Assembly (NCBI RefSeq): GCF_015223055.1
Contig: NZ_JADFBX010000011.1
Coordinates: 1 to 64,000, forward strand
Length of the DNA: 64,000 bases
From: Pedobacter sp. MC2016-24
GTDB lineage: Bacteria > Bacteroidota > Bacteroidia > Sphingobacteriales > Sphingobacteriaceae
Direction of reading: 5' to 3'
Positions 27,322 to 50,000 of the stretch are shown one piece after another; position 1 is the stretch's first letter, and the number at the start of each line of letters is the position of its first letter. Made by a program: the position numbers and the translations under genes. The notes under the pieces are model-generated. The model did no database searches and was not told the origin of the DNA. It was given only the letters and a program-made list of their open reading frames with translations.

Positions 27322-27603
27322 ATGCGTACTAAAACGGTCATCATCATCATTTTCACTGTCATCATCACCATTTTCCTAATGATCAATACCGATGCTGTTG
27401 AATTTAATTTCATCATTTTCAAAAAAGACGTTTCCAAACTTTTGGTGATTGGGGTGTGTACTTTTGTAGGCTTTATATTGGGATACATGACCGGCCGGCC
27501 AAAAACAACAATCAGTACTTACGACAGGGAGACCGACGACCGTGGCCCGGTAACCAGTAAAAGCACGCTGAGCGATGAAGACCGGGATTACATCAATCCT
27601 TAA
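27322..27603 (+). CDS. Small LapA-like two-helix membrane protein
   Basis: A 93-residue protein with two transmembrane helices (about residues 5-24 and 40-60) separated by the short loop FNFIIFKKDVSK, and a polar C-terminal tail. This is the layout of the LapA/DUF1049 family. It starts 5 bases after the large propeller-barrel gene and is probably co-transcribed. Its last 11 bases overlap the convergent permease gene. The function of the family is not established in this phylum. Confidence 0.75.
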   Translation: MRTKTVIIIIFTVIITIFLMINTDAVEFNFIIFKKDVSKLLVIGVCTFVGFILGYMTGRPKTTISTYDRETDDRGPVTSKSTLSDEDRDYINP

Positions 27604-29062
27604 CCGTTTGCCTGGCAAGTGCAAAATAATATATGGGTATGCCCAAAAGCACAATAAATAAGCCGCGGGCGGCAAATTGCGGCTTATACACAATCAACGA
27701 TACGCAAAAAACAGCTGCTACTAAAATGTAAATAACGGTGAGGTACGGATAACCAAAAGCTTTATAATCCCTTGGTAAATCAGGTTGCTTTTTCCTCAGA
27801 ATGAAAATACCGGCAACAGTGATGATGTAAAAAGCCATCACTACAAATGAAATATAATCAAACAGATCGCCGTACCTGCCACTGGTACAAAGTAAAATTG
27901 CAACCAGGCACTGAATCCACAAGCCGTTCTCCGGAACGGCATTTTTATTTAACCGCGCGATTTTCTTAAAAAACAAACCATCTTTAGCCATCGCATAAAA
28001 CACCCTTGCACCAGAAATAATTAATCCGTTATTACAGCCAAACGCCGAAAGCATAATCAAAAATGCTACAACCAGTGTTCCTGTATTTCCAAAAATCTTT
28101 AGGGCAGCTGCAATAGCCACCCGGTTTTCAGGCGCAAAGGCAATACTCCCCAGGTCCCCGGGCACTTTACCAATAGGCAACACAGCCAGGTACATCAGAT
28201 TACAAAGCACATACAGCACACTGACAATCAAAGTCCCTAAAAACAGGCTGAGCCCCACATTACGTTTTGGATTTTTCACCTCTCCTGCAATAAAAGTGAT
28301 ATTGTACCAGGCATCACTGGTCAAAATCGCACCCACCATCGCGGCAGCTACCGCACCAAAACTCGCCAGTCCGCGAACATGCTTCCACACCTTGACATGG
28401 CCCCCCTCGTCACCCGCACGTTCAGAATACCTCAGCAATTCAAAAGGATGCGACCAATTGTCGTCCCACACCTTTTGGTCAAACGCCAGTAAAAAGCCAA
28501 AAACAATCAAGCCCAATAAAGTAAGCAACTTGGTAACTGTAAAAAAGTTTTGAATGATCTTCCCCAGTTCAATACCTTTCGTATTGATATAGGTTAACAA
28601 GACAATACTGGAAATAGCCAATAACTTGGAAGCTGAAATTTGCAGTATTCCCAGATCAGCCAGGACATGATCTTCGCTAAACACAGGAAAAATAAAGGCT
28701 GCAAATTTGCTAAACGCGATCGCTACCGCAGCGATCATCCCGGTTTGAATCACACTAAAAAAACTCCAGCCATATAAAAAAGCAACCAGTGGATTATAAG
28801 CTTCCTTTAAATACACATACATGCCACCAGCCTTTGGATACAGCGCAGTCAGCTCTATGCAACTCAATGCGGCTGAAATGGTAATGAGCGCAGTCAATAC
28901 CCAGGCCGCAATGAGCCAACCCGCACTACCAACATCCTGTACCATCAAGGAGCCCACAATAAAAATACCAGAACCAACCATGCTGCCGGCAACAATCATT
29001 GTTGCATCAAACAAGCCCAGACTTGGCTTAAAACCTAATTTTGTTTCCTTTATCTCCATCAA
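27593..29062 (-). CDS. APC-family amino acid permease
   Basis: A 489-residue secondary transporter of the amino acid-polyamine-organocation superfamily with twelve predicted helices. The first helix holds the substrate-binding GSMVGSGIF glycine motif, typical of LAT/APA-type permeases. It begins with SLGLFDATMIVAG, and helix 3 and helix 8 regions are normal. It takes up amino acids or amines in symport or exchange. Its promoter (29099-29155) is a close copy of the one before the SusC gene at 30834, and an HxlR regulator is divergent from it, so it probably belongs to the same regulon as the SusC/SusD system. The substrate may thus be a product released by that system. Confidence 0.9.
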   Translation of the reverse strand: MMEIKETKLGFKPSLGLFDATMIVAGSMVGSGIFIVGSLMVQDVGSAGWLIAAWVLTALITISAALSCIELTALYPKAGGMYVYLKEAYNPLVAFLYGWSFFSVIQTGMIAAVAIAFSKFAAFIFPVFSEDHVLADLGILQISASKLLAISSIVLLTYINTKGIELGKIIQNFFTVTKLLTLLGLIVFGFLLAFDQKVWDDNWSHPFELLRYSERAGDEGGHVKVWKHVRGLASFGAVAAAMVGAILTSDAWYNITFIAGEVKNPKRNVGLSLFLGTLIVSVLYVLCNLMYLAVLPIGKVPGDLGSIAFAPENRVAIAAALKIFGNTGTLVVAFLIMLSAFGCNNGLIISGARVFYAMAKDGLFFKKIARLNKNAVPENGLWIQCLVAILLCTSGRYGDLFDYISFVVMAFYIITVAGIFILRKKQPDLPRDYKAFGYPYLTVIYILVAAVFCVSLIVYKPQFAARGLFIVLLGIPIYYFALARQTVKD

Positions 29063-29098: not shown

Positions 29099-29155
29099 AA
29101 TAAAAGTATACTAAATCAGTAGACTATTTAAATTATTCTACTTACCTTTAGGTAA
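29099..29155 (-). promoter_or_regulatory. Promoter cassette of the permease (inverted copy of the SusC promoter)
   Basis: Read on the minus strand it carries TTACCT-aa-AGGTAA (29142-29155), then TTTAAATAGTCTACTGATTTAGTA, and a -7-like TACTTTTA. It matches 51 of 57 bases with 30744-30800 on the opposite strand, and the distance to the start codon is almost the same (36 versus 33 bases). The dyad lies upstream of the -33 position, as expected for an activator site. Confidence 0.8.
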
Positions 29156-29206
29156 CCAAGACCTTACCGGTCAGCAACAAACCTAACGCTTATTCAACAC
29201 CACAAC

Positions 29207-29545
29207 ATGGACCAGCCTATAGAAATTAACCGAAACCTCTTACCATTACGAGATGCCATTGATGTGATCAGTGGAAAATGGAAATTACCGATCATTCTGA
29301 CACTTGTACAAAATGGGAAAAGATACAAGGACCTGAACAATACCATCACGGGCATTTCCTCTAAAGTGTTATCCAGGGAATTACAAAATCTGGAAGAAAA
29401 CTTTCTGATTGAAAAAAAGAATGTCAACTGCGGACATCAGATTGTGCAATATAGCCTAACGGATCACGGAAGAAGTCTGGTTCCCCTGATAGATGAGATT
29501 TTAAAATGGGGACAAAAGCATAGAAATGTGATCATCAGGAATTAA
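29207..29545 (+). CDS. HxlR-family transcriptional regulator
   Basis: A 112-residue winged-helix regulator. The characteristic segments are DAIDVISGKWKLPIILTL (helix 1 and 2), KRYKDLNNTITGISSKVLSRELQ (recognition helix region, here in two parts) and the wing GHQIVQYSLTDHGRSL. The family usually senses small electrophiles or metabolites. One Cys (in NVNCGHQ) is present. The gene is divergent from the permease and lies between the two copies of the inverted promoter cassette, whose dyad TTACCTnnAGGTAA is the natural candidate operator. Its 3' end overlaps the convergent oxidase gene by 11 bases. Confidence 0.9.
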   Translation: MDQPIEINRNLLPLRDAIDVISGKWKLPIILTLVQNGKRYKDLNNTITGISSKVLSRELQNLEENFLIEKKNVNCGHQIVQYSLTDHGRSLVPLIDEILKWGQKHRNVIIRN

Positions 29546-30668
29546 ACCTGTCCAGCCTGAAAGGTTGCAAATCAATATCCGGATCAACGCCACTTGCCAT
29601 TTGCGACAAAAGTTGCCCAACCATACTGGAAAACTTAAAACCATGTCCGGAACAAGGGCTCGCAACAATGATATTTTCATGAAAAGGATGCCGGTCAATG
29701 ATAAAGTGCTCATCAGGGGTATTCGTATACATACAAACCGAAGCCTGGGCATGGATGGCATCCAGATTAAAATAGTTGCGTACAATTTCCGCCAAAGCTT
29801 CAACTTCTGCCGGATCTACTTTACGGTTAAGCTGATCCGGATTACCTGTTGCTCCTTTTTTTGTGCTTGCAATTTTAATCCCATTGCCAAGATCAGGAAA
29901 ACCATAAAACATTTGCCCCGGTTTGTACTCCCAAATGTAAACAGGTAGCTTGTCAGGCAAAAAACGCAGGTCATCGGCCTTCGTGTTTTTAAACCAATGT
30001 ACCACCCTCCGCTCTACGGATAAAGGAAGCTTCAAGTCGGGCAACAATTCCGAAACCCATGCACCTGCACTTACAATAACCTGTCCGGCACCATACCTGC
30101 CCGTACTTGTCGTCACATCAACACCACTGCCATTTGCTTTTATAGACATCACCTGCTCATCAAAATGTAAAACAGCACCTGCCCTCGCTGCCAGATCTAA
30201 ATGTGTCCGAATGCAGGCTTCAGGTAAAAGCAATCCGGCCTCTTCCTCCAGTACGGCAACTGTATCTGCTGTTGGTTTCAGAGCGGGAAAAATCTGCCTG
30301 ATTTGCCCGCAGTCCAAATATTGGTGCTTCAGATTGTACTGCTCCGCACTATATAAAACACCCTGGATTACTGTACTCGCTGCATTTCCCAAGGTCAGAC
30401 TCTTACTTTTAACAAACAACTTTTCACCCGAAATCTGCTCAAGCTCCAACCAGGCACCCATTGCAGCCTGCACAAATGGGACATACATAGGCGATTCAAA
30501 ATAGGCCTGCCGGATGATGCGGCTTTCCCCATGCGAAGACCCAAACACATGTGGAGGCCTAAACCGGTCTATGCCCAGCACCCGTTTGTTTCCGCGGGCC
30601 AAATGATAAGCAGCAGCCGATCCTGCAGCGCCCAGGCCAATAATGATAACGTCAAAATTTGTGTCCAC
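29535..30668 (-). CDS. Sarcosine/N-methyltryptophan oxidase-like flavoenzyme
   Basis: A 377-residue FAD amine oxidase of the DAO superfamily, closest to monomeric sarcosine oxidase and N-methyltryptophan oxidase (SolA). The FAD-binding motif GLGAAGSAAA is at residues 11-20 and the GSSHGESRIIRQAYFE segment follows as in that group. Cys312 in CMYTNTPDEHF aligns with the Cys that binds FAD covalently, and SGHGFKFS is the conserved C-terminal loop. It oxidises secondary amino acids to an imine with hydrogen peroxide. No signal peptide. It lies between the regulator and the SusC gene; related flavoenzymes attack glycated amino acids, which would fit a locus with a deacetylase, but this is inference. 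Confidence 0.88.
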   Translation of the reverse strand: MDTNFDVIIIGLGAAGSAAAYHLARGNKRVLGIDRFRPPHVFGSSHGESRIIRQAYFESPMYVPFVQAAMGAWLELEQISGEKLFVKSKSLTLGNAASTVIQGVLYSAEQYNLKHQYLDCGQIRQIFPALKPTADTVAVLEEEAGLLLPEACIRTHLDLAARAGAVLHFDEQVMSIKANGSGVDVTTSTGRYGAGQVIVSAGAWVSELLPDLKLPLSVERRVVHWFKNTKADDLRFLPDKLPVYIWEYKPGQMFYGFPDLGNGIKIASTKKGATGNPDQLNRKVDPAEVEALAEIVRNYFNLDAIHAQASVCMYTNTPDEHFIIDRHPFHENIIVASPCSGHGFKFSSMVGQLLSQMASGVDPDIDLQPFRLDRFNS

Positions 30669-30743
30669 TTCCGCTCCTCAATGATTTATGCCCAATATAA
30701 GCAATCCAATTTCCCGAGCATACCAGAGGGTTTAAAATTTAGG

Positions 30744-30800
30744 TTACCTCGAGGTAAGTAAAAGGATTTAAATAGTCTACTAATTTAGTATACTTTTATT
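30744..30800 (+). promoter_or_regulatory. Promoter and operator cassette of the SusC gene
   Basis: A perfect 14-bp palindrome TTACCTCGAGGTAA (30744-30757) is followed by TTTAAATAGTCTACTAATTTAGTA, which includes the near-dyad TACTAATTTAGTA, and a -7-like TACTTTTA (30791-30798). The sequence is repeated inverted at 29099-29155 and partly at 40619-40647. No good -33 box is present, consistent with a need for an activator. Confidence 0.8.
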
Positions 30801-30833: not shown

Positions 30834-33800
30834 ATGTTTAAACCTTTACCATTAAACGGTATCCCGATCCTACTCGGACTTGTATTTACTACAGCCGGTT
30901 TCGCTTCTACCGGATATGCCTTCGCTCAGTCAGGCCCATACCTGGCAACCACAAGCCTGCAAACCCCGAATAAAGCAGCCATTAAAATTTCGGGTACAGT
31001 AACTGATCAGGAAACCCAGACAACCATTCCGGGCGTATCTGTCACCATCAAAGGACGCAATGCAGGCACCAGCACCAACGCCAAAGGAAACTACAGCTTA
31101 AGCGCCAATGAAAATGACATACTCGTATTCTCATTTGTGGGCTATGTGACCAGGGAAATCCCCGTAAGCGGCCCTGTCTTAAATGTGCAGCTTAAGCCAG
31201 ATGCTTCTGGTTTAAATGAAGTCCTGGTAGTTGGTTACGGTACCCAACAAAAAAGAAGCATTACCGGGGCGGTGGCATCATTAACCGCACGCAACATCAA
31301 AGACCTCTCCATAACCTCGTTTGAAAATGCCATAGTGGGTCAGATACCAGGCGTACAGGTACAGGAGCCAAGCGGCGAACCCGGGTCAGCCCCTACCATC
31401 CGCATCCGTGGGGTAGGTTCAATTTCTGCAGGAAACGAACCTTTGTATGTTGTAGATGGTTTCCCAATTTCTAAAAACGTTGAACCAGGGGTTCAGGGAG
31501 ATCCTGTAAGAAGAACTGTAGCCTTTCGTCCGCAACCGGCAAACCCTTTGGCAACCATCAGTCCGGGCGACATCGAATCTATAGAAGTATTGAAAGATGC
31601 AGCTGCCGCCGCCATTTATGGCTCCAGAGGCTCAAATGGAGTTGTGCTCATCACCACAAAAAGAGGCAGTAAAGACGGTAAACCGAACATCACAGTAGAC
31701 ACCTACACAGGCATTCAAAACCCTGCCCGCCGGGTAAAACTCATGAATTCGGCAGAATTAACTGCTTACCTAAAAGACGCCAGAAATAATGCATACCTGC
31801 AGGACGTTCCAGGTGCTCTCGCCTCAGATCCGAATTCCGTCCGTCTGACCAAAGTATCGGCCATCCCATCCTTACAGGCAGCAAACTATTTTATCCCGGA
31901 CGATTTTGTCAATCCTACCGGAACTGATACCGATTGGCAGGATGTCATATTTAAAACCGCAGCAGTACACAACACCACGGTCGCTGTATCCGGCGGTTCA
32001 GAGAAATTGGCTTACTACGTTTCTGGTAACTATTACGATCAAAATGGCATCATCGACCAAACCGGCTTTAAGCGATACAGCCTCAGGATCAACCTGGATG
32101 CCCAGCCCTTCAAGCGACTGAAAGTAGGCTTCAACGCAAATCCATCATTTACAGACCAGCAACGCGGATCTACAAGCGCGCCCTACTTTGCAGATCCTCC
32201 GGGAGCAGTGTACACCGCATTGGTAACCTCTCCTACGGTATCACCTTATCTGCCTGACGGCTCCATCAACCAATCCGACAACCAGAGTCATTTATTTACA
32301 GAAGACGGGCGCTCGGCAAATATGACAGCCTCCAGCAATCCACTGGCGGTCATCAATTACATTCACGACAACCTGAACCAATTCAGAACCACCTCCAGTG
32401 GATTTGCGGAATATGAAATTCTAAGCGGTCTTAAATACAAATTGTACGCCGGAGCAGACATCAATTCTTACAACAAAGATTATTACAGACAGAAAGCATT
32501 TATAGACAGGGATGCTACCGTTGGTGTTCCCTTTGGGCAATCCAATGCTTCTTTAGAAACAAACTGGCTGGTAGAGCATACGCTTTTCTATGAGAAAAAA
32601 CTGGGCGACCATGCTTTCTCTGCATTGGCAGGTTATACTGCACAAAAAGACAAAATCAGTCTGAACCAGGTACAGGCAGAGAATTACCCAGATGATCTTG
32701 TTCAAACCGTTAGTGGCGGACAAGTTACAGGCGGTACCTCTGCCAAAGAAGAATGGGCTTTAGTTTCCTACCTGGCCAGGGCAAATTATGCATTTAAAGA
32801 CCGTTACCTGTTCTCGGCGAGCGTACGTTCAGATAAAGCCTCACGCTTTGGTAAAGGAAACCGGACTGGGGTATTCCCCTCATTTTCTGCCGGATGGCGC
32901 ATCATTGACGAACCCTTTTTAAAAGACGTCTCCTTTCTTAGCGACCTTAAGCTCAGGGCCAGCTGGGGAAAGACCGGAAACTTTCTGATTCCAAACTATG
33001 CCTCCATTGGCCTCCTCAATCCAGCAAATTATGTATTCGGAAATGCCATTGCCAATGGTATAGCGCCTTCTACCCCAAGTAACAATGCACTTACCTGGGA
33101 AAAAAACACCCAGACCGACCTTGGCCTTGAACTGGGCTTTCTGAAAAACAGAATCTTTGCCACCGTCGATATTTATAAAAAAATAACCTCAGACCTGCTC
33201 TTAAATGTACAGGTCCCTGCCGGTGTTGGATTCGGAACTTTAAACCCACTTCAAAACATAGGTAAAGTAGAAAACAAGGGCATTGAGATCTCACTTTCCA
33301 CCCGCAACCTGGTGGGCAGCTTTACCTGGAATACAGATTTGAACTTTTCTGCCAATAAAAACAAAGTCTTAAAATTAGGCATCACCGGCGATCCTATTTT
33401 TGGTGCCAGCGCCAATGACACCAGGCACGTTACCCGGATTGGTGATGCCATAGGAAGCTATTATGGCTATGTGGTTGAGGGCATTTATCAATCGCAGGCC
33501 GAAATTGACAGTGCACCAAAAGATAAAATAGCAGTCAAAGCATCTCCAGGTGATTTCAGATTTAAAGATGTGAATGGCGATGGGGTGATCGATGCGAATG
33601 ACCGTACCGTAATCGGCAATTATCAGCCGGATTTCACTTATGGCATAACCAACCGGTTTGGATACAGGGGACTGGAACTCAGCTTCCTCATCCAGGGTGT
33701 ACAAGGTTCAGAAATTCTCAATTTAACCAGACGGCACCTGGCCAACGGAGAAGCCCTCACCAACTCTTATGCCTTTGAAAACGACAGGTGGATCTCGCCA

Positions 33801-34139
33801 AGTCAGCCGGGCAACGGTAAAATACCCCGTGCAGATAAACAGGGAACAGTACATAACAACAACAACAGACCATCTACCTTCCAGATCGAAGATGGCTCGT
33901 ACCTGCGCCTCAGAAATGTAACATTAGCCTACACATTTGCGGCCAATACCTTGGGTAAAAAATTCCCGGCATTGCGCGTTTATCTATCCGGAACCAATTT
34001 ACTGACCTTCACCAAATACGAGGGTTACAATCCGGAAGTAAACAACCAATCGACCAGCAACAACACCCCAGGAGAAGATTATGGAGCTTACCCGCTCATC
34101 AAAAACTACACCTTCGGTGTCAATCTTACTTTCAAATAA
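30834..34139 (+). CDS. SusC/RagA-type TonB-linked outer membrane transporter
   Basis: A 1101-residue TonB-dependent transporter that imports oligomeric or bulky ligands together with the SusD lipoprotein. The signal peptide is within residues 1-32 (AFA-Q). Residues 50-125 are a carboxypeptidase-regulatory-like domain (ISGTVTDQETQTTIPGVSV). The TonB box/linker LNEVLVVGYGTQ (about 133-144) and the plug (IRIRGVGSI, SAAAIYGSRGSNGVVLIT-like end) follow, then a 22-strand barrel finishing with an aromatic FNLTFK-type strand. There is no N-terminal STN domain, so it is not a FecR-type signalling receptor. It leads susC-susD-PIG-L. Confidence 0.95.
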   Translation: MFKPLPLNGIPILLGLVFTTAGFASTGYAFAQSGPYLATTSLQTPNKAAIKISGTVTDQETQTTIPGVSVTIKGRNAGTSTNAKGNYSLSANENDILVFSFVGYVTREIPVSGPVLNVQLKPDASGLNEVLVVGYGTQQKRSITGAVASLTARNIKDLSITSFENAIVGQIPGVQVQEPSGEPGSAPTIRIRGVGSISAGNEPLYVVDGFPISKNVEPGVQGDPVRRTVAFRPQPANPLATISPGDIESIEVLKDAAAAAIYGSRGSNGVVLITTKRGSKDGKPNITVDTYTGIQNPARRVKLMNSAELTAYLKDARNNAYLQDVPGALASDPNSVRLTKVSAIPSLQAANYFIPDDFVNPTGTDTDWQDVIFKTAAVHNTTVAVSGGSEKLAYYVSGNYYDQNGIIDQTGFKRYSLRINLDAQPFKRLKVGFNANPSFTDQQRGSTSAPYFADPPGAVYTALVTSPTVSPYLPDGSINQSDNQSHLFTEDGRSANMTASSNPLAVINYIHDNLNQFRTTSSGFAEYEILSGLKYKLYAGADINSYNKDYYRQKAFIDRDATVGVPFGQSNASLETNWLVEHTLFYEKKLGDHAFSALAGYTAQKDKISLNQVQAENYPDDLVQTVSGGQVTGGTSAKEEWALVSYLARANYAFKDRYLFSASVRSDKASRFGKGNRTGVFPSFSAGWRIIDEPFLKDVSFLSDLKLRASWGKTGNFLIPNYASIGLLNPANYVFGNAIANGIAPSTPSNNALTWEKNTQTDLGLELGFLKNRIFATVDIYKKITSDLLLNVQVPAGVGFGTLNPLQNIGKVENKGIEISLSTRNLVGSFTWNTDLNFSANKNKVLKLGITGDPIFGASANDTRHVTRIGDAIGSYYGYVVEGIYQSQAEIDSAPKDKIAVKASPGDFRFKDVNGDGVIDANDRTVIGNYQPDFTYGITNRFGYRGLELSFLIQGVQGSEILNLTRRHLANGEALTNSYAFENDRWISPSQPGNGKIPRADKQGTVHNNNNRPSTFQIEDGSYLRLRNVTLAYTFAANTLGKKFPALRVYLSGTNLLTFTKYEGYNPEVNNQSTSNNTPGEDYGAYPLIKNYTFGVNLTFK

Positions 34140-34157
34140 TATTATTCCATAGAAATA

Positions 34158-35537
34158 ATGAAGCTAAAAATTACCTATCTATTGTTGCTGTCCGGTGCTT
34201 TAAGCTCCTGCAGCGACCAGTTCACAGACCTGAGCCCATTGTCTCAGCGCAATGTGGATGTTTACTACAAAACCGAAGGAGATTTGATTACCGCAGTCAA
34301 TGCAACATATAAAGGCCTGCAACTCACAGGAACCTACAATCAGGGGTATTGGATTGCCAACGAATTGCGATCAGACAATACCGATGCCGGAAATGATATC
34401 GGCGGAGGTGTTGGCCCATTTTTAAACGCAATTGACAATTTCAATGAAGATGCAACAACCGAGGTCATCAGGGATGTTTACTTCGACAGCTATGTCGGCA
34501 TTGCCAGGGCAAACATTGTGCTCAGCAGAATTGAACCTGTACCCATCGCAGAAATCACCAAGAACCGGTTAAAAGGGGAAGCACTATTCTTACGGTCCTT
34601 ATTTTATTACAACCTTGCTGTTAACTTCGGAAAACTTCCCCTGGTATTGAAAGAAATATCCGTAGAGGAAGGTAAAAATTATTTACAGGTGCCCGCTTCA
34701 GAAGTCTACAAGCAATTGATTGCTGATTTGATACTTGCAGAGAATTACCTGCCTGTAAAATATACCGGACTGGATGTTGGCAGAGCGACCAAAGGTGCTG
34801 CCGCAACTTTGCTGGCCAAAATTTACCTGACTACCGGAGACAAGACCGCAGCCATCCCGGTATTGCGCAGAATCATCAATACCTATGGATATACCTTATT
34901 GACGGACTATTCCAAACTATGGGGCATCGCCAATAAAAACAATGCAGAATCCATATTTGAAGTGCAGTTTAAAGGCGGCAATTTTGGAACCGGAAACCTG
35001 TTTACCAATGCGTTCTCCCCCTTGCTTCGCCAAACTTCAGGCGGCTACAAAAACAGGCCTACCGCATCACTTGAAGCTGCATTTGAAACCAATGACAAAC
35101 GCATTGCCGCTTCTTTCAATCCAATTAACGGCCCTTTAAATCCAGCAAGATTCATCTTGAAATATGGTACAACCAATGCATTTACGGAATTTGATGCAGA
35201 CTATAATTTCCCTGTCTTCCGCTATTCAGATGTCTACCTGCTCCTTGCAGAAGCTTTGGGCGAAGGAACAGAGGCATATGGCCTGATTAATGAAGTCCGT
35301 TTAAAACATGGCGGACTTGGAAATATCAGCGCTGCCACACCCGGCACATTTGAAGATAAGTTATTGCATGAAAGACAGGTTGAATTTGCTTTTGAAAATC
35401 AGCGCTGGCCCGACCTGCTGAGGTTTGGTAAAGCCAGCGCCGTATTGCAGGCGCAGGGAAAGAAAGCCCGTCTGCTTTTCCTTATTCCACAAAGAGAGCT
35501 GGACATTAACAAACAGTTTACGCAAAATCCCCTATAA
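34158..35537 (+). CDS. SusD/RagB-type surface lipoprotein
   Basis: A 459-residue ligand-binding lid protein for the SusC transporter. Lipobox LSSC places the lipidated Cys at residue 17, and the conserved N-terminal FTDLSPLSQRN matches the family. The TPR-like segments (GIARANIVLSRIE, LKGEALFLRSLFYYNL) and the C-terminal LHERQVEFAFENQRWPDLLRFGK, here cited in parts, are diagnostic. The 18-base gap to SusC indicates a single transcript. Bound substrate cannot be inferred, but the adjacent PIG-L deacetylase and flavoenzyme point to an N-acetylated amino compound. Confidence 0.94.
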   Translation: MKLKITYLLLLSGALSSCSDQFTDLSPLSQRNVDVYYKTEGDLITAVNATYKGLQLTGTYNQGYWIANELRSDNTDAGNDIGGGVGPFLNAIDNFNEDATTEVIRDVYFDSYVGIARANIVLSRIEPVPIAEITKNRLKGEALFLRSLFYYNLAVNFGKLPLVLKEISVEEGKNYLQVPASEVYKQLIADLILAENYLPVKYTGLDVGRATKGAAATLLAKIYLTTGDKTAAIPVLRRIINTYGYTLLTDYSKLWGIANKNNAESIFEVQFKGGNFGTGNLFTNAFSPLLRQTSGGYKNRPTASLEAAFETNDKRIAASFNPINGPLNPARFILKYGTTNAFTEFDADYNFPVFRYSDVYLLLAEALGEGTEAYGLINEVRLKHGGLGNISAATPGTFEDKLLHERQVEFAFENQRWPDLLRFGKASAVLQAQGKKARLLFLIPQRELDINKQFTQNPL

Positions 35538-35612: not shown

Positions 35613-38114
35613 ATGACAACACCAGAAAAAACCACAGCTACTTGCCTGAGCACAACAATTCTTTTGTGCTGCCTCAGTATATTCAGCCATGCGCAAACCA
35701 GTAACAACTGCACATCCGGAAAAATATTGCAAGGGTTAAAAAAGCTGAATGTGCTGTCATCCGTACTTTATATCGCTGCACATCCAGACGATGAGAACAA
35801 CACGCTTATTGCCTACCTGGCCAATGAAAAGCTGGCCAATGTGGGTTATCTGTCACTAACCCGAGGCGATGGCGGGCAAAATCTCATCGGTCCTGAAATA
35901 AGAGAAGAGCTGGGCATCCTGCGAACCCAGGAACTCCTGGCCGCACGCCGCGTAGATGGTGGCAATCAATATTTTGCCACGGCAAATGACTTTGGATTTT
36001 CAAAAAATCCAGAAGAAACATTCAGCATCTGGAACAAAGAAAAACTACTGGCAGACATGGTCTGGATGATCCGTAAAACGAGGCCCGACGTATTGATTAC
36101 GCGATATTCGCGCTTACCTGCCGATACACACGGACACCATACCGCATCGGCCATACTGGCTTATGAAGCATTTGATGCAGCAGCCGATCCGAAACGTTTT
36201 CCTGAACAGCTTAAATATGTAAGGCCCTGGCAGGCCACAAGACTGCTGTGGAACACAGGCCCCGGGTTCTACATACCCGGAGACACCACAGATAAAAAAA
36301 AGTTAATCCAGGTAAACGTTGGACAGTACAATGTGCTGCTTGGCAAATCTTACGGGGAAATTGCTGCCGAAAGCAGGAGTATGCATAAATGCCAGGGAAT
36401 GGGAATCAAGCCGCAAAGAGGCAATGAGCTGGAGCTGTTCAGGCAAGTAAAAGGAGTCGAATCCAGCTCCGGGATTTTTGAAGGCATTGACACCTCCTGG
36501 AACAGAATCCCAAAAACAGAAAAAATTGCACAGCTGATCACCAAAGCAATTGACACTTACAACCCGCAAAAACCTGCTCTCCTTATCCCGGACTTAATTG
36601 CTGCCTTATCTGAAATAGATAAATTACCCGATAGCTACTGGAAAGAAGTTAAAACAAATGCGATAAAAACCATCATTGCCGAACTGGCTGGTCTTGTGTT
36701 AGACGCAACCACCAACGAGGACAGTGTAACGCCAGGAAAAATGGCAAAAATAAAAATAGAAGTCATCAACAGATCTGATGCAGAAATCCGGTTAAAAAAC
36801 ATCTGGCTTCCCTATGCCGGCAAAGACACAGCATTGAACCTGGCGCTGAAAAACAACCTTCCCAACTACCTGAACTTCGAAACAACTTTAGATCCCGGCA
36901 CCCCCTATTCCCAACCCTATTGGCTAAAAGAAAAAGCCAGCCTGGGGCTTTTCCAGGTAAAAGATCAGCAAAACATCGGATTAGCGGAAAACAAGCCTGA
37001 AGTATCTGCCATCTTTAACCTCCTCATTGCTGGCTACCCGGTATCTTATACCATACCACTGAGCTATAAATACACAGACCCAAAAGCAGGCGAAGTTTAC
37101 CAGCCCCTGCAAATCACCCCGCCGGTTTTTGTGGCCCTCAGCAAAGACGTATACGTTTTCTCCGACAACGGCCCGCAAACAATTTACGTTAAGATCAAAT
37201 CGGGCACAGCTCATATTCAGGGAAAAGTTAAGCTCAACATCCCTGCACAATGGCACGTTGAGCCACAGGACCTGCCTTTTAACCTACAAAAAAAGGGCGA
37301 TGAACAACTGCTGGCTTTCACTTTATCACCACCGCCCGGCGCCGGACAGTTCACATTACAGGCAAGCGCATGCCTTGATGATGGAAAATCTTACCATAAT
37401 GAATTAAAAATCATCAGGTATCCACACGTTCCGGTACAAGCTTATTTTCCGGAAGCCATTGCCAAAGTGGTAAAAATAGCACTTAAAAAAACTGGCAATA
37501 AAATAGCTTATATTCCTGGAGCAGGCGACAGGGTACCCGAAAGCCTGCAACAGGCAGGTTATGAACTGACTTTGCTTAAAGACCAGGAGATCACTACAGC
37601 AAACCTGGCCAGGTACGATGCTGTGGTTATAGGCATCCGTGCATACAACGTGAATGAACGCCTCAATTTCCACAAAGACGAATTACTCAACTATGTTAAA
37701 AACGGAGGTAATTTAATCGTGCAATACAATACAGATTTCGACCTCCCCAATTATGATATTGGCCCTTATCCCTTTCATATTTCAGGCAAAAGAGTTACAG
37801 ATGAACACGCTCCGGTCACCCTGCTCAATAAAACCCATCCCTTACTCAACAGACCAAATCAAATTAGCCCGCAGGATTTTGAAGGCTGGGTTCAGGAACG
37901 CGGGGCTTATTTTGCCGATAACTGGGATCAAAGATATCAACCATTGGTATCATTTAACGATCCGGCAGAGCCTCCACTACATGGCGGCATATTGGTAGCC
38001 GACTATGGAAAAGGACATTACATTTATACTTCATTGGCCTGGTTCAGGCAACTCCCCGCAGGGGTACCAGGAGCTTACCGGCTATTCGCCAACCTGCTTG
38101 GCCTCGGTAAATAA
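35613..38114 (+). CDS. Secreted PIG-L (LmbE) family deacetylase with ThuA-like C-terminus
   Basis: An 833-residue exported protein; the signal peptide ends near residue 27 (SHA-Q). Residues 45-290 are the zinc-dependent PIG-L/MshB fold: AHPDDE (56-61) gives the first two metal ligands and the Asp base, and DTHGHHTAS (171-179) the third His. These enzymes remove N-acetyl groups from GlcNAc-containing molecules. A beta-sandwich region (350-600) follows. From about 620 a Rossmann-like domain resembling ThuA/GATase folds starts (DAVVIGIRAYN, KNGGNLIVQYN, YGKGHYIYTSLAW). It is the last gene of the SusC locus, before a terminator. Likely acts in the periplasm or at the surface before import. Confidence 0.88.
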   Translation: MTTPEKTTATCLSTTILLCCLSIFSHAQTSNNCTSGKILQGLKKLNVLSSVLYIAAHPDDENNTLIAYLANEKLANVGYLSLTRGDGGQNLIGPEIREELGILRTQELLAARRVDGGNQYFATANDFGFSKNPEETFSIWNKEKLLADMVWMIRKTRPDVLITRYSRLPADTHGHHTASAILAYEAFDAAADPKRFPEQLKYVRPWQATRLLWNTGPGFYIPGDTTDKKKLIQVNVGQYNVLLGKSYGEIAAESRSMHKCQGMGIKPQRGNELELFRQVKGVESSSGIFEGIDTSWNRIPKTEKIAQLITKAIDTYNPQKPALLIPDLIAALSEIDKLPDSYWKEVKTNAIKTIIAELAGLVLDATTNEDSVTPGKMAKIKIEVINRSDAEIRLKNIWLPYAGKDTALNLALKNNLPNYLNFETTLDPGTPYSQPYWLKEKASLGLFQVKDQQNIGLAENKPEVSAIFNLLIAGYPVSYTIPLSYKYTDPKAGEVYQPLQITPPVFVALSKDVYVFSDNGPQTIYVKIKSGTAHIQGKVKLNIPAQWHVEPQDLPFNLQKKGDEQLLAFTLSPPPGAGQFTLQASACLDDGKSYHNELKIIRYPHVPVQAYFPEAIAKVVKIALKKTGNKIAYIPGAGDRVPESLQQAGYELTLLKDQEITTANLARYDAVVIGIRAYNVNERLNFHKDELLNYVKNGGNLIVQYNTDFDLPNYDIGPYPFHISGKRVTDEHAPVTLLNKTHPLLNRPNQISPQDFEGWVQERGAYFADNWDQRYQPLVSFNDPAEPPLHGGILVADYGKGHYIYTSLAWFRQLPAGVPGAYRLFANLLGLGK

Positions 38115-38174: not shown

Positions 38175-39341
38175 TTAAGCCAGGGCCTGGGTGATGTCAG
38201 CAAGGATATCGTCGACATGTTCCAATCCGATGGACAAGCGAATTGTACCCTGCTCAATACCGACTTCCAAACGTTGTTCTTCGGTCAGCTTGGAATGTGT
38301 GCTCGTTGCAGGATGTGTGGCAATGGAACGGGTATCTCCCAGGTTCGCCGAAATGGAGAACATTTTCAACTTGTCCATAAACCGGCTTGCAGCTGCAACA
38401 CCACCTTCAATCACCAGGGTTACAATACCGCCACCCTGTTTCATTTGTTTTTTAGCAATCGCATACTGCGGATGAGAAGGCAAAAACGGATACATTACCT
38501 TTTTGATGCTGGAATGCCCTTCTAAAAACTCAGCTACTTTTAAAGCATTTTCACAATGCCTGTCCATGCGCACAGCCAGCGTCTCTAAACTCTTCGATAA
38601 CAACCAGGCATTGAAAGGTGACATTGCCGGTCCGCTATGACGGGCAAAGCCTTCAATCTCTAAAATTAAATTTTTAGAACCTAAAATTATCCCCCCAAGG
38701 GTCCTGCCCTGTCCGTCAATAAACTTGGTAGCCGAGTGAATGGAAATATCAGCGCCCAGTTTAATGGGTTGCTGCAGGTAAGGCGTTGCAAAGCAGTTAT
38801 CCACCACCAGCAGCTGGTTGTGTTTTTTGGAGAGATTAGCCAGCCACTCCAGGTCAATAATATCAATTCCCGGATTAGAAGGCGTTTCAACAAAAATCAT
38901 TTTAGTATTTGGCTGAATCGCCTGCTCCCACTGTTCCGGTTTATCCAGATCAGCATACGTATAGGTTACGCCCCATTTGGAGAAAACATTGCTTAGCAGC
39001 TGATGTGTAGAACCAAAAACCGAACGACTGGACACCACGTGATCTCCCGATTTCAAAAAAGCGGCAAACGTTGTAAATATGGCAGCCATTCCCGAAGCTG
39101 TTGCCCAGCCACTCTCCGCACCTTCCAGTACAGCCATTTTATCAATTAATTCTGTAGTATTCGGATTGGCATAACGGCTGTACACATTGCCTTCTTTTTC
39201 ATTGGCAAACAAAGCACGCATGTCCTCCGCGTCATCAAACTTATAACTTGAGGTTAAGTACAAAGGCACAGAATGCTCTTTAAATTGGGTTCTTTCGGCT
39301 TGTAAACGGATAGCCAGGGTTTCGAAATGGTCTTCTTGCAT
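38175..39341 (-). CDS. metZ: O-succinylhomoserine sulfhydrylase-type PLP enzyme
   Basis: A 388-residue Cys/Met-metabolism PLP enzyme. PLP binds K206 in HSATKFIDGQG; the aromatic YSRYANPN (54-61), the SGMAAI loop and VVDNCFATPYLQQP are typical of MetZ and cystathionine gamma-synthase-like members. The GQGR sequence after the Lys is a mark of sulfhydrylases of the MetZ group. The reaction would be O-succinylhomoserine plus sulfide to homocysteine. Downstream of an OsmC-family gene (5-base gap), in an apparent operon with ispE upstream. The exact acyl donor is not provable from sequence. Confidence 0.87.
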   Translation of the reverse strand: MQEDHFETLAIRLQAERTQFKEHSVPLYLTSSYKFDDAEDMRALFANEKEGNVYSRYANPNTTELIDKMAVLEGAESGWATASGMAAIFTTFAAFLKSGDHVVSSRSVFGSTHQLLSNVFSKWGVTYTYADLDKPEQWEQAIQPNTKMIFVETPSNPGIDIIDLEWLANLSKKHNQLLVVDNCFATPYLQQPIKLGADISIHSATKFIDGQGRTLGGIILGSKNLILEIEGFARHSGPAMSPFNAWLLSKSLETLAVRMDRHCENALKVAEFLEGHSSIKKVMYPFLPSHPQYAIAKKQMKQGGGIVTLVIEGGVAAASRFMDKLKMFSISANLGDTRSIATHPATSTHSKLTEEQRLEVGIEQGTIRLSIGLEHVDDILADITQALA

Positions 39342-40618: not shown

Positions 40619-40647
40619 CAAACTTACTAAATCAGCAGACTATTTAA
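40619..40647 (-). promoter_or_regulatory. ispE promoter with a third copy of the shared element
   Basis: On the minus strand the element TTAAATAGTCTgCTGATTTAGTA, differing at one base from the permease copy, is followed directly by TAAGTTTG (40626-40619), an exact -7 box. The start codon is 25 bases downstream. The TTACCTnnAGGTAA dyad is absent here. The element overlaps the stop codon of the upstream PKD gene. Confidence 0.65.
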
Positions 40648-44054: not shown

Positions 44055-47000
44055 TTAATTATCTCTAACTACAGTGATGAAACCTTTAAACACTTGTCTG
44101 CCTGTTCCAAAATCAATGATGTAATAATAAGTACCTTCTGACAATGCGGTACCGTTATATGTTCCATCCCAGCTATTGTCATAGCTTTTCTTAGCAAACA
44201 CCAAACGTCCGGCCTTGTCAAACACTTTCACTTCATTATTTGGATAGAAATCGATGTTGTCAATGATCCACTTGTCATTATAACCATCACCATTCGGGGT
44301 CAGGATATTGGTCGCTTTAATCTTGGCCAAATCATCCAGTACAGTAATGGTAAAGCTTTTCGTTTCGCTGCAACCACTCGCATTGGTACCTGTAACGGTA
44401 TAAGTAGTGGTTTGTCTTGGCCTAACCTGTAAGGTTGCAGCATTCACCGCACCAATTACGCTATTGTCTGTCGCCCATGCATAAGTAGCAGCACCGGTAG
44501 CGGTTAAGAACACCGTTTCACCTTTACTGATCTCTATGCCTTTATCACTGTTGATGCTCAATACAGGCAATGCATTCACCGTAATCACAAAAGTACGGCT
44601 GTAAGTATCTACACCGCCATTTGCTGTACCGCCATTGTCTTTAACCGTTACGGTAACTGTAGCAGTTCCTGCAGCACCGGTTTTGGCCTGATAAACCAGG
44701 GTTCCTGTTGCACCGGTACCCGATACTGTTAAACGGTCAAACAAGTTTGCATTGCTGCTGCTTACCGATAAAGTAGTCGTTTGCGAGGTCTCAGGACCAG
44801 CACTGATACCTGTCAGCGCCACGTTTTGATTGCTGCGGGTATAGCAAATGGTTTGATTGGCAATTGCCGCCAGTGTCGGAATCTCATTTACATCCGTCAG
44901 ATTGATGGTAATCACTTTATCCAGTGAGAATCCGTATTGTGTAGTGCTTCTCACGCGGATGCTATAGCTTGCTTTAGTTTCGTAATCTAAAACTGCAGCA
45001 GAATTAACAGCCGTTCCTGAAATCGCAAATGAAGCATTGTCAGTATCTCCCGTTCCGGCAACCAGGGTATAAGTAAAGGTTGCTGCAGGATCGTCAGAGG
45101 TGCTGCTCAATGTACCAGCGTTTGTTCCGATCGGGCTGTTTTCAAACAAAGTTACAGCCGCCAGGTTCACACTGGTTGGTGCTCCAGGTTTAATTTTCAG
45201 TATACCATCCACATAGCTGATGGTGTAATTTGCTGCCGCAGCTCCAGTCGCTTTAATCGGATAATCGCCAATCGGACTGCTTGTCAATGCGGTAGTTGTA
45301 ATGGTTGGTAATGTAGTTAATACAGCGGCACCTTCAGCATTCACAAATCCAGAATAGCTAACCGTTAATGCCGGGTTAACCGTACCTGCAAATTTCTCTT
45401 TGTTATCTGCGGTGATGACCAGCGCTTTTCTGTTTACAGTTAACACACTGTTGGTATAACTGATGACATAATTGCTAAGCCCGTTACCGGTCGCTGCCGA
45501 AACAACAATTGGATAAGTAGAGCCTGCAACTGTTGCAGTTGCCGCAGCACCTGTACTGGTTAGCGTAACGCCTGTAACGGTATTGCCATTGATCAGGCCT
45601 GTAGCTGTAAACTCAGTACCCGCAAAGACCACAGCATCACCATAAGTTTTGGTTCTTGCCGTAGCAGCAATGCTCAGGGCTTTTTGAGTCACGGTTAACA
45701 CACCATTTGGATTGCTGAGTGAATAGTTAGCCAGTTTACCATCAGGATCTGCAAGCGTAGCTACAATTGGATAAGTAGTTCCGGTAACTGCGGTTGCTAC
45801 TGCTCCTGTACTGTTACGGGTCAGCGTAATGTTGTCGCTGTTGACAATACCTGTGATGCTACCTGTAAAGTCGGCATTGGTCAGCACGTCACCATAAACT
45901 TTAGCGCGGTTGTTGTTGACAACAGCCAGGGCTTTAGGTGTTACAGTTAAAGCACCATTTACATAAGTAACAGCATAGTTGGCCAGACCAGTACCAGTAG
46001 CTGCTGATGGAACGATTGGATAAGTCGAACCTGCAACCGTAGCTGTTGCCGCAGCACCCGTACTGTTTAAAGTAACGCCGGTAACCGTATTGCCGTTGAT
46101 CAAACCGGTCGCTGTAAATTCAGTACCGGCAAAAGTCACTGCATCACCATAAGTTTTGGTTCTTGCAGCAGCAGTAACCGTCAGTGTTTTCTGAGTAACG
46201 GTCAAAACCCCATTTGGGTTACTTACCGTATAATTACCCAGTTTACCATCAGGATCGGCAAGCGTAGCTACAATCGGATACGTTGCACCCACAGCTGCAG
46301 TTGCCACAGCTCCTGTACTGTTACGGGTCAGGGTAATGTTATCACCATTTTGGATTCCTGTAATGCTTCCCGCGAAGTCAGCATTGGTCAATACGTCGCC
46401 ATAAACTTTCGAGCGGTCGGTATTCACTACAATCAGGGCTCTAGGCGTTACCGTTAAAGCGCCATTAACATAAGTAATGTTATAATTGTTCAAACCGGTA
46501 CCCGCAGCAGCCGAGGCTACGATCGGATAAGTTGAACCAGCAACTGTGGCTGTTGCCACAGCACCCGTACTCGTTAAGGTAACTCCGGTAATGGTATTGC
46601 CATTGATCAAACCGGTCGATGTAAATTCAGTACCTGCAAAAGTTACCCCATCGCCGTAAGTTTTGGTTCTGGCAGCAGCAGTAATGGTCAGTGTTTTCTG
46701 AGTCACGGTCAATACACCATTTGGATTGCTCAGCGTATAATTGCCCAGCTTACCATCAGGATCGGCAAGCGTAGCCACAATCGGGTAAGTAGAGCCTATA
46801 GCTGCAGTAGCTACCGCTCCTGTACTGTTACGGGTCAGGGTAATGTTGTCGCTGTTGACAATACCGGTGATGCTACCTGTAAAGTCGGTATTGGTCAGTA
46901 CATCGCCATAAACTTTGGAGCGGTTGTTATTCACCACAGCCAGTGCTTTAGGTGTTACGGTTAAAGCACCATCCACATAAGTAATGTTATAATTAGTCAA

Positions 47001-50000
47001 ACCAGTACCCGCAGCAGCCGAGGCCACGATCGGATAAGTTGAACCTGCAACTGTTGCTGTGGCAGCAGCACCTGTACTACTTAAAGTAACACCGGTAACC
47101 GTATTGCCATTAATTAAACCGGTCGCTGTAAATTCAGTACCGGCAAAAGTTACTGCATCACCATACGTTTTGGTTCTTGCAGCAGCGGTAATAGTCAATG
47201 TTTTCTGAGTTACGGTCAAAACCCCATTTGGGTTACTTACCGTATAATTACCCAGTTTACCATCAGGATCCGCAAGCGTAGCCACAATCGGATACGTTGC
47301 GCCTGCAACTGCAGTTGCTACCGCTCCTGTACTGTTACGGGTCAGGGTAATGTTATCACCATTTTGAGTTCCGGTGATGCTTCCTGCGAAGTCAGCATTG
47401 CTTAACACATCGCCATAAACTTTTGAGCGGTCGGTATTCACTACAACCAGGGCTCTAGGCGTTACCGTTAAAGCGCCATCGACATAAGTGATGGTGTAGT
47501 TGTTCAACCCAGTACCCGCAGCAGCCGAGGCTACAATTGGATAAGTTGAACCTGCAACCGTAGCTGTTGCCGCAGCACCTGTACTGCTTAAAGTAACACC
47601 AGTAACGGTATTGCCATTGATCAAACCGGTCGCTGTAAATTCAGTACCTGCAAAAGTTACGGCATCGCCATAAATTTTGGTTCTTGCAGCAGCGGTAATG
47701 GTCAGTGTTTTTTGAGTCACGGTCAATACCCCATCTGGGTTACTTACCGTATAATTACCCAGTTTACCATCAGGATCCACAAGCGTAGCCACAATCGGAT
47801 ACGGTGTGCCTGCAACTGCCGTTGCTGCTGCCCCTGTACTGTTACGGCTTAAGGTAATGTTGTCGCTATTTTGAATTCCGGTGATGCTACCTGTAAAGTC
47901 GGCATTGGTCAGTACATCGCCATAAGCTTTGGAACGGTTGTTATTCACCACAACCAGGGCTCTAGGCGTTACTGTTAAAGCACCATCAACATAAGTAATG
48001 TTATAATTGTTCAAACCAGTACCCGCAGCGGCCGAGGCCACAATCGGATAAGTTGAACCTGCAACTGTCGCTGTTGCAGCTGCACCTGTACTGCTTAAAG
48101 TTACTCCGGTAATGGTATTGCCATTGATCAAACCGGATGCTGTAAATTCAGTACCTGCAAAAGTTACGGCATCGCCATAAGTTTTGGTTCTGGCAGCAGC
48201 GGTAATGGTCAGTGTTTTCTGAGTAACGGTCAAAACTCCATTTGGGTTACTTACCGTATAGTTACCCAGTTTACCATCAGGATCCGCAAGCGTAGCCACA
48301 ATCGGGTAAGTTGAACCTATAGCAGCAGTAGCTACCGCTCCCGTACTGTTACGGGTCAGGGTAATGTTGTCGCTGTTGACAATACCGGTGATGCTGCCTG
48401 TAAAGTCGGTGTTGGTCAATACATCACCATAAACTTTGGAGCGGTCGGTATTGACCACAACCAGGGCTTTAGGCGTTACTGTTAAAGCACCATCAGCATA
48501 AGTAATCGCATAGTTTGTCAGACCAGTACCAACAGCCGCCGAAGCCACAATCGGATAAGTCGAACCGGCAACTGTAGCTGTTGCAGCTGCGCCTGTACTG
48601 CTTAAAGTAACACCAGTAACGGTATTGCCATTGATCAAGCCAGTCGCTGTAAATTCAGTACCGTCAAAAGTCACTGCATCGCCATAAGTTTTGGTTCTTG
48701 CAGCAGCCGTAATGGTCAGTGTTTTCTGAGTTACGGTCAACACCCCATTAGGGTTACTTACCGTATAATTACCCAGTTTACCATCAGGATCCGCAAGCGT
48801 AGCTACAATCGGATAAGTTGCGCCTGCAACTGCAGTAGCTACTGCGCCTGTACTGTTACGGCTCAATGTAATGTTATCACCATTTTGAATTCCGGTGATG
48901 CTTCCTGTAAAGTCAGTATTGGTCAGTACATCGCCATAAGCTTTAGAGCGGTCGGTATTCACTACAACCAGGGCTCTAGGTGTTACAGTTAACGCGCCAT
49001 CTGCATAAGTAATTGCGTAATTACTCAAACCAGTACCAACCGCTGCCGAGGCTACGATCGGATAAGTCGAACCGGCAACAGTAGCCGTTGCAGCTGCACC
49101 TGTACTGTTTAAAGTAACACCAGTAATGGTATTGCCATTGATTAAACCAGGAGCTGTAAATTCAGTACCTGCAAAAGTCACTGCGTCACCGTAAGTCTTG
49201 GTTCTGGCAGAAGCAGTAACCGTAATTGGTTTTGTCGCAATGGTTAAAACCTGCTGAACTTGTGGAGCAGCGTCATAATTGGCATTTCCAGCCTGGTTTG
49301 CAGAAATCGTAACTGTACCTTTTGCAACGATGTGTACTTTCCCGGAAACAATGGTTGCCACTAATGGATCGCTGCTGCTGTAAGTTACAGGTAATGTACT
49401 GCTACTTGTCGCCCCCGGATCAATATCTGCATCGCCATATACAGCCGGACTAAAAGCCGACAAGGTGATGGTCTGTGATGCTTTTGCAACTGTACCCAGG
49501 TAAGGTACATAGGTTATCGTATAATTATTTGCTAAAAATCCGTTTGCACCAACTGCCAATGAAGGTGTAACTACGTAGGCACTTCCTGCCGGTGTGCTTG
49601 CAGTCTGACCAGCAACATCAGGGGTTAAAGTTACGCTTGCGATCGTTTCTCCATTTTGCAATGTGCTTGTGCTAAAATTAGAGGTACTCGAACCCGCACT
49701 TAATGCTTCACCAAAATGTTTAACAGGCCCTGTCGCGGTTATTGTTAAAAGCGCTGGGCTCACGACAATGTTGCCAGCAGTATAAGTAATCGAATAGTTG
49801 GCCGCATTAAAAGTTCCCCCGGTTGCCGCACTGGCAGTTACCGATCCAACATAATTATCGGCACCAGCTGTTGCAGCAGCGCCTGCTCCATAGCTGATGG
49901 ACACACTTCCAATCGTTTCCGAATTTTGCAAACCGGTAGGACTAAATGTTGTAGCCCCTGTTACAGTGGTCAGACTTTGTCCGTAAGTTTTCGTAGCATT

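Follow-up and report, generated by a model that had tools for sequence, protein, structure and literature searches.

Two copies of a 57-bp promoter cassette lie in inverted orientation around a gene for an HxlR-family regulator in the window, the whole 64,000-nucleotide stretch of Pedobacter sp. MC2016-24 DNA analysed here. This arrangement raises the question of what the duplication is for: whether the copies are duplicated promoters of one regulon, which the first-pass annotation regarded as the simplest reading, or the ends of a segment able to invert, which it gave as the alternative, and which regulators act on them. The answer that sequence comparisons make reasonably probable is a duplicated promoter with two controlling regulators, namely the local HxlR protein and a CymR/IscR-like sulfur regulator of the Rrf2 family; the two copies would drive the gene for an amino-acid permease and a SusCD operon, respectively. 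The identities proposed earlier for the permease, the SusC-like protein and the HxlR regulator were confirmed by Pfam, and the genes of the locus are the following:

27593–29059, minus strand: APC-family amino-acid permease (PF13520; Pfam), proposed target of cassette copy A.
29207–29545, plus strand: HxlR-family regulator of 112 aa (PF01638; Pfam, 80 bits).
29535–30668, minus strand: FAD-dependent amine oxidase, exceeding the cut-off of NCBIfam NF008425 (N-methyl-L-tryptophan oxidase).
30834–34139, plus strand: SusC-like TonB-dependent transporter (Pfam), proposed target of cassette copy B.
34158–35537, plus strand: SusD-like protein (Pfam).
35613–38114, plus strand: PIG-L family deacetylase, whose top NCBIfam name, Mca (mycothiol conjugate amidase), scores far under its cut-off.
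38175–39341, minus strand: O-succinylhomoserine sulfhydrylase (metZ), a convergent neighbour.

The hxlR gene was placed correctly between the two copies by the first-pass annotation, but the segment additionally contains the amine oxidase gene. A search of 144 other genomes of the genus at E ≤ 1e-80 detected this oxidase in only 1, and its top match among the named genomes listed was 55%. The PIG-L deacetylase gene probably shares the susCD operon. Methionine-ABC-transporter-like genes were seen by eye downstream of two oxidase relatives (loci L016 and L019) and, together with metZ next door, give surroundings that fit a sulfur theme. Elsewhere in the window, the minus strand of 44055–51782 encodes a 2575-aa protein in which numerous similar repeats, each about 80 aa long, were recognized by eye.

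Alignment of the inverted copies bore out the claimed match of 51 out of 57 bases, and in a repeat search no inverted repeat of the region was longer than this pair (68 nt, 85%, 1566 nt between arms). Each copy consists, in order, of a 14-bp dyad (TTACCTnnAGGTAA), a 14-bp spacer, a 25-bp near-palindrome (ATAGTCTACTRATTTAGTATACTTT) and TATT, with the near-palindrome overlapping the -7-like box of the outward promoter. The TTTAAATAGTC block reported in the first-pass annotation is present, but that it is itself a near-palindrome had been missed. The elements of the cassette, and one weak candidate site near metZ, are positioned as follows:

29099–29155, minus strand: cassette copy A, pointing at the permease, its other side toward hxlR; 51/57 identical to copy B.
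29101–29108, minus strand: -7-like box TACTTTTA of copy A, matching TAnnTTTG at 7 of 8 positions and overlapping the end of the near-palindrome.
29103–29127, minus strand: 25-bp near-palindrome ATAGTCTACTGATTTAGTATACTTT of copy A, proposed Rrf2-type operator.
29142–29155, no strand: 14-bp dyad TTACCTTTAGGTAA, proposed HxlR operator, 51 nt upstream of the hxlR ATG.
30744–30800, plus strand: cassette copy B, pointing at susC, its other side toward the oxidase gene.
30744–30757, no strand: 14-bp dyad TTACCTCGAGGTAA, proposed HxlR operator, 75 nt upstream of the listed oxidase start.
30772–30796, plus strand: 25-bp near-palindrome ATAGTCTACTAATTTAGTATACTTT of copy B, proposed Rrf2-type operator.
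30791–30798, plus strand: -7-like box TACTTTTA of copy B, positioned as in copy A.
40619–40643, minus strand: weak candidate site with TAAGTTTG before ispE-osmC-metZ, 19/25 to the IscR type 1 consensus, which is chance level; not counted.

Identity falls to 12/60 and 11/40 bases in the flanks of the cassette, i.e. to chance level, indicating that a compact unit was copied. Its 33-base core, TTTAAATAGTCTACTRATTTAGTATACTTTTAT, occurs twice in the 64-kb window as against 0 times in 100 shuffles, and no further copy was found with up to 3 mismatches in the 6.79-Mb draft genome (63 contigs). The six mismatches between copies are distributed over the centre of the TTACCTnnAGGTAA dyad (two), the spacer (three) and the 25-bp near-palindrome (one), and the dyad half-sites are identical, a sparing that suggests that the cassette was duplicated in inverted orientation and that selection then acted on two binding sites. 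The copies occupy both divergent gaps of the locus, permease/hxlR and oxidase/susC, so that both kinds of site lie near all four transcription units. Their distances to the start codons, which had been given as equal, are only similar, with 39 nt to the permease ATG (29059) and 33 nt to the SusC ATG (30834); a TTG upstream of the permease ATG lies 36 nt from copy A.

Inverted repeats of 57–68 bp could also bound a 1.7-kb segment that inverts, as in phase variation, or that once did. Invertible promoters occur at SusC/D loci of Bacteroidetes, and the locus resembles these in carrying inverted repeats near a susC promoter; it differs from them in that here the promoters are the repeats themselves and point outward, and in that Pfam scans of 20 window proteins yielded no recombinase. 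Since the promoters lie inside the repeats and point outward, they would be the same after an inversion. The idea gains from two oxidase relatives (L009 and L011) in which permease and oxidase genes are adjacent and divergent, as an inverted segment would give, but loses from the fact that the copy differences spare the dyad half-sites and that the 25-bp palindrome is found as single copies at unrelated promoters. In a further relative (L019 and L118, which share one sequence across the 3000 bases compared) a SusC-like gene is divergent from the oxidase gene, as in the window, with a match of 35–36% that is weak either way. Because the oxidase relatives show both gene orders, an old rearrangement of the locus is possible. 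Nevertheless, little evidence favours the invertible segment put forward earlier, given the outward promoters that it would not affect, the missing recombinase in those 20 proteins and the single-copy palindromes elsewhere, and we regard a segment delimited for inversion, present or past, as very improbable.

The preferred reading of a duplicated promoter under dual control requires a regulator for each of the two palindromic elements. The 14-bp dyad has the form TTACC-TnnA-GGTAA, with a 5+4+5 geometry. A perfect 5+4+5 dyad was found within 160 bp before the gene in 20 of the 29 top-scoring hxlR relatives (38–51% identical, sampled from 301 with a match among 399 family genomes), compared with a shuffle mean of 7.6 and a maximum of 13; the shuffles in this test, as in the rrf2 motif and TAnnTTTG tests below, preserved base composition only, not dinucleotides. 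These 20 dyads, some of which come from near-identical loci, include eight of the form TTTCC-N4-GGAAA and five of the form TATAC-N4-GTATA. The same enrichment was obtained for 5+5 dyads with spacers of 6 and 8 (20/29 each), a result to be expected if longer palindromes are present. HxlR-type dyads in tandem, with a spacing of about 18 bp, were also noticed by eye before hxlR genes (L125, L126, L135, L136, L138, L140, L141 and others), and a strict test recovered this spacing in 3 of the 29 loci (mean of 0.2 and maximum of 2 in shuffles).

TTACCTNNAGGTAA itself was found upstream of none of the 29 related hxlR genes. The genome search for it that the first-pass annotation had proposed returned four places, two of them the cassette copies, against three for a reversed control, so that by itself the dyad is no rarity and stands at chance level in the genome. 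A genome-wide HxlR regulon marked by TTACCTNNAGGTAA was rejected, the other two sites lying inside long open frames (L003, within an RND-transporter-like frame, and L006). Since an HxlR-domain protein is encoded alongside and the dyad is of the class seen before related hxlR genes, this protein most likely uses the 14-bp dyad as its operator. The locus has in common with HxlR-family regulators (solved relatives include YdzF, HxlR and YodB) the HxlR domain and a dyad before its own gene, whereas its operator sequence is particular to this locus. The proposal of duplicated promoters of one regulon is supported, as the half-sites are spared and the dyad geometry is enriched, but HxlR accounts only for the 14-bp dyad.

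The 25-bp near-palindrome is also found at other loci of the family. Its 21-mer AGTNTACTAANTTAGTANACT occurs exactly in 5 of 399 family genomes and in none for the reversed control. When up to 2 mismatches were allowed, AAAGTNTACTAANTTAGTANACTTT was found in 73 of the 399 genomes, which represent 5 of 25 genera, and the reversed pattern in 3 genomes. This genome holds five near-palindrome sites with up to 3 mismatches, one of them doubtful. Target contexts were read in 30 loci from sites in the 73 genomes, plus a few extra, with Pfam run on representatives and grouping by tblastn; the sites (n = 39) form a few groups of orthologous targets, so the counts are not independent. A promoter-positioned palindrome precedes redoxin genes of a first group in L149–L151, L153, L155–L160 and L195 (the last in this genome) and of a second group in L176 and L178, a 1-Cys peroxiredoxin gene in L152, L161 and L162, and TonB receptor genes in L167, L168, L169 and L172. 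A YeiH-type putative sulfate exporter, whole or partial, adjoins the receptors in L167, L169 and L172 and is encoded by the next gene after the palindrome in L228, while farther downstream a sulfatase gene is found in L171 and a PIG-L gene in L154. In L115, L116, L175 and L229, tRNA-Cys lies 23–41 nt behind the 25-mer, each time directly with a TATATTTG box; it lies about 170 nt behind in L154 and past PhyH in L163. All tRNA genes in the scanned palindrome loci (7/7) are tRNA-Cys. Targets without an evident sulfur role comprise PhyH/SDR genes, which flank the palindrome in L163, L177, L194 (this genome) and L230, the side of a LacI gene, a fatty acid hydroxylase gene and an SSF symporter gene.

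A few individual sites deserve separate mention. One palindrome (L166/L113, about 1501–1640) is followed by TATCTTTG and a hairpin, seen by eye, between convergent LacI and MBL genes, and this hairpin is possibly a small RNA under the palindrome's regulator. Another site of this genome (L091), with 2 mismatches to the 21-mer, stands before an ECF-sigma-like gene and was left out of the counts, as was a weak palindrome-like site upstream of a CBS gene (16075).

The Bacteroidetes -7 box is TAnnTTTG. An exact TAnnTTTG was found within 45 nt of the palindrome at 32 of 39 sites, compared with a mean of 3.8 and a maximum of 11 for random positions, and a mean of 6.4 and a maximum of 12 for shuffled flanks (this set omits L113 and L114, which duplicate L166 and L167, as well as L091 and L196). 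At 31 of the 39 sites the box lies near one of three offsets, -21 (14 sites), +7 (4) or +16 (13), cases that are not independent since many of the sites are orthologous. The two window copies carry TACTTTTA at offset +7, where the four TonB-receptor sites (L167, L168, L169, L172) carry TACTTTTG; an exact TAnnTTTG is absent from both window copies, which match it at 7/8. These offsets place the palindrome over or beside the promoter, as suits a repressor. An intrinsic terminator, considered on account of L113 with its position between convergent genes, was rejected, the offsets from TAnnTTTG being kept at 31/39 sites.

The candidate for this repressor is an Rrf2 protein of 145 aa present in 319 of 341 family genomes and encoded in this one at C3:442694-443128, adjoining a SUMT/siroheme gene. 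In the best 30 of the 319 rrf2 neighbourhoods, own genome included, the motif was found directly downstream of rrf2 in 18 (shuffle p ≤ 0.025), and a significant motif was missing in 12; the 30 loci belong to close relatives, so these counts are not independent. The motif followed rrf2 in 14 of 15 loci with the SUMT (siroheme) gene next, and in four with a sulfite reductase gene next (L217, L218, L220, L225; NIR_SIR by Pfam), while in L222 and L226, also with sulfite reductase next, it misses p ≤ 0.025. The site beside rrf2 in this genome is weak, with 6 mismatches. Since the Rrf2 protein is present in 319/341 genomes but the palindrome (up to 2 mismatches) in 73/399, regulator and motif are not closely coupled at that stringency.

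An assignment of both cassette copies to HxlR alone, with the near-palindrome as a second HxlR operator, would draw on the position of hxlR between the copies, on the TACT-N5-AGTA of the near-palindrome, which we take to resemble HxlR-type half-sites, and on the TATAC-N4-GTATA dyads at 5/29 related hxlR genes. However, the palindrome stands at many promoters in other genomes, no hxlR relative was detected in 41 palindrome loci (tblastn E ≤ 1e-8, flanks mostly 1.5 kb), and the top-scoring hxlR relative among the 399 family genomes is just 48% identical. As the palindrome moreover adjoins rrf2-SUMT and rrf2-sulfite reductase genes, control of both elements by HxlR appears unlikely. The near-palindrome might also be the operator of a dimeric repressor other than Rrf2, for example of BlaI type, because promoter-covering palindromic operators fit several repressor families and a blaI gene lies about 0.2 kb from one site (L008/L109), but the association with Rrf2 is much stronger than that with BlaI, and such a repressor is in our judgement improbable. 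BlaI itself was rejected as the palindrome's regulator: the exact palindrome occurs in only 1 of 20 BlaI-type loci (three genomes), where a tRNA-Cys gene separates it from blaI.

An Rrf2 protein is thus the preferred regulator of the near-palindrome. Its top specific NCBIfam name is CymR, with 81.4 bits under the NF047409 cut-off of 195, so that it is filed as a CymR-like Rrf2 protein and not as CymR; the next name is IscR, whose equivalog TIGR02010 it matches with 63.6 bits, under the cut-off of 207.55. The nearest solved structures are Rrf2 proteins, CymR and IscR among them. The protein carries a C-x8-C-x2-C-x5-C segment, which Bacillus CymR is not known to have. CymR, an Rrf2-family member, governs the cysteine regulon of Bacillus and Staphylococcus (PMC2940859). 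The present system resembles that of CymR in an Rrf2 protein whose closest name is CymR, in sulfur-related targets and in repressor-like operator positions, but departs from it in the sub-cut-off score, in sites that also precede tRNA-Cys and redoxin genes, and in belonging to another phylum.

The type-1 site of E. coli IscR is given as the 25-bp ATASYYGACTRWWWYAGTCRRSTAT (PMC3899308). A scan of the 64-kb window with this consensus ranked the two palindromes first, with 21/25, the maximum in 20 Markov windows being 20; the 30 family sites L149–L178 reach 17–20 of 25, so the IscR consensus test alone would miss them. Compared with the type-1 operator of E. coli and P. aeruginosa (PMC3899308), the element is likewise a 25-bp near-palindrome in register, compatible at 21/25 positions, but reads TACT in place of the consensus GACT. 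Among the palindrome targets read, isc and suf genes were not noticed. Its promoter positions, its targets, its match to the IscR site and its adjacency to rrf2 suggest that the 25-bp near-palindrome is most likely the operator of an Rrf2 protein.

Under the proposed dual control, the inverted duplication would have given both divergent gaps an HxlR dyad and an Rrf2-type site. When sulfur (cysteine) or Fe-S is sufficient, Rrf2 bound to the 25-mer would block the permease and susCD-PIG-L promoters, and when sulfur is short it would leave the 25-mer and these promoters would open. HxlR bound to the outer dyads would control hxlR and the oxidase gene inward and may add a second signal, substrate or redox, to the outward promoters. 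Through the locus the cell would then import and degrade an amine or amino-acid compound, possibly one that contains sulfur, whenever sulfur runs short. More tentatively, with slightly less than even confidence, a family-wide sulfur regulon under an Rrf2 regulator coupled to siroheme or sulfite-reductase genes may include the transcription of tRNA-Cys, whereby the supply of cysteine-tRNA would follow sulfur status, and a locally duplicated HxlR and Rrf2 module may have recruited the oxidase/permease/SusCD locus into it as a two-signal gate.

The component parts are of known kinds. Neither their combination, nor tRNA-Cys under an Rrf2-type site, nor any account of such a regulon in this bacterial group turned up among the open-licence papers listed, which is weak evidence of absence. 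The 25-bp motif makes the regulon directly testable in culturable relatives. If the proposal is true, it would provide a sulfur-related hypothesis for the SusCD locus and tie the sulfur status of these bacteria to the transcription of tRNA-Cys, to thiol peroxidases and to outer-membrane uptake.
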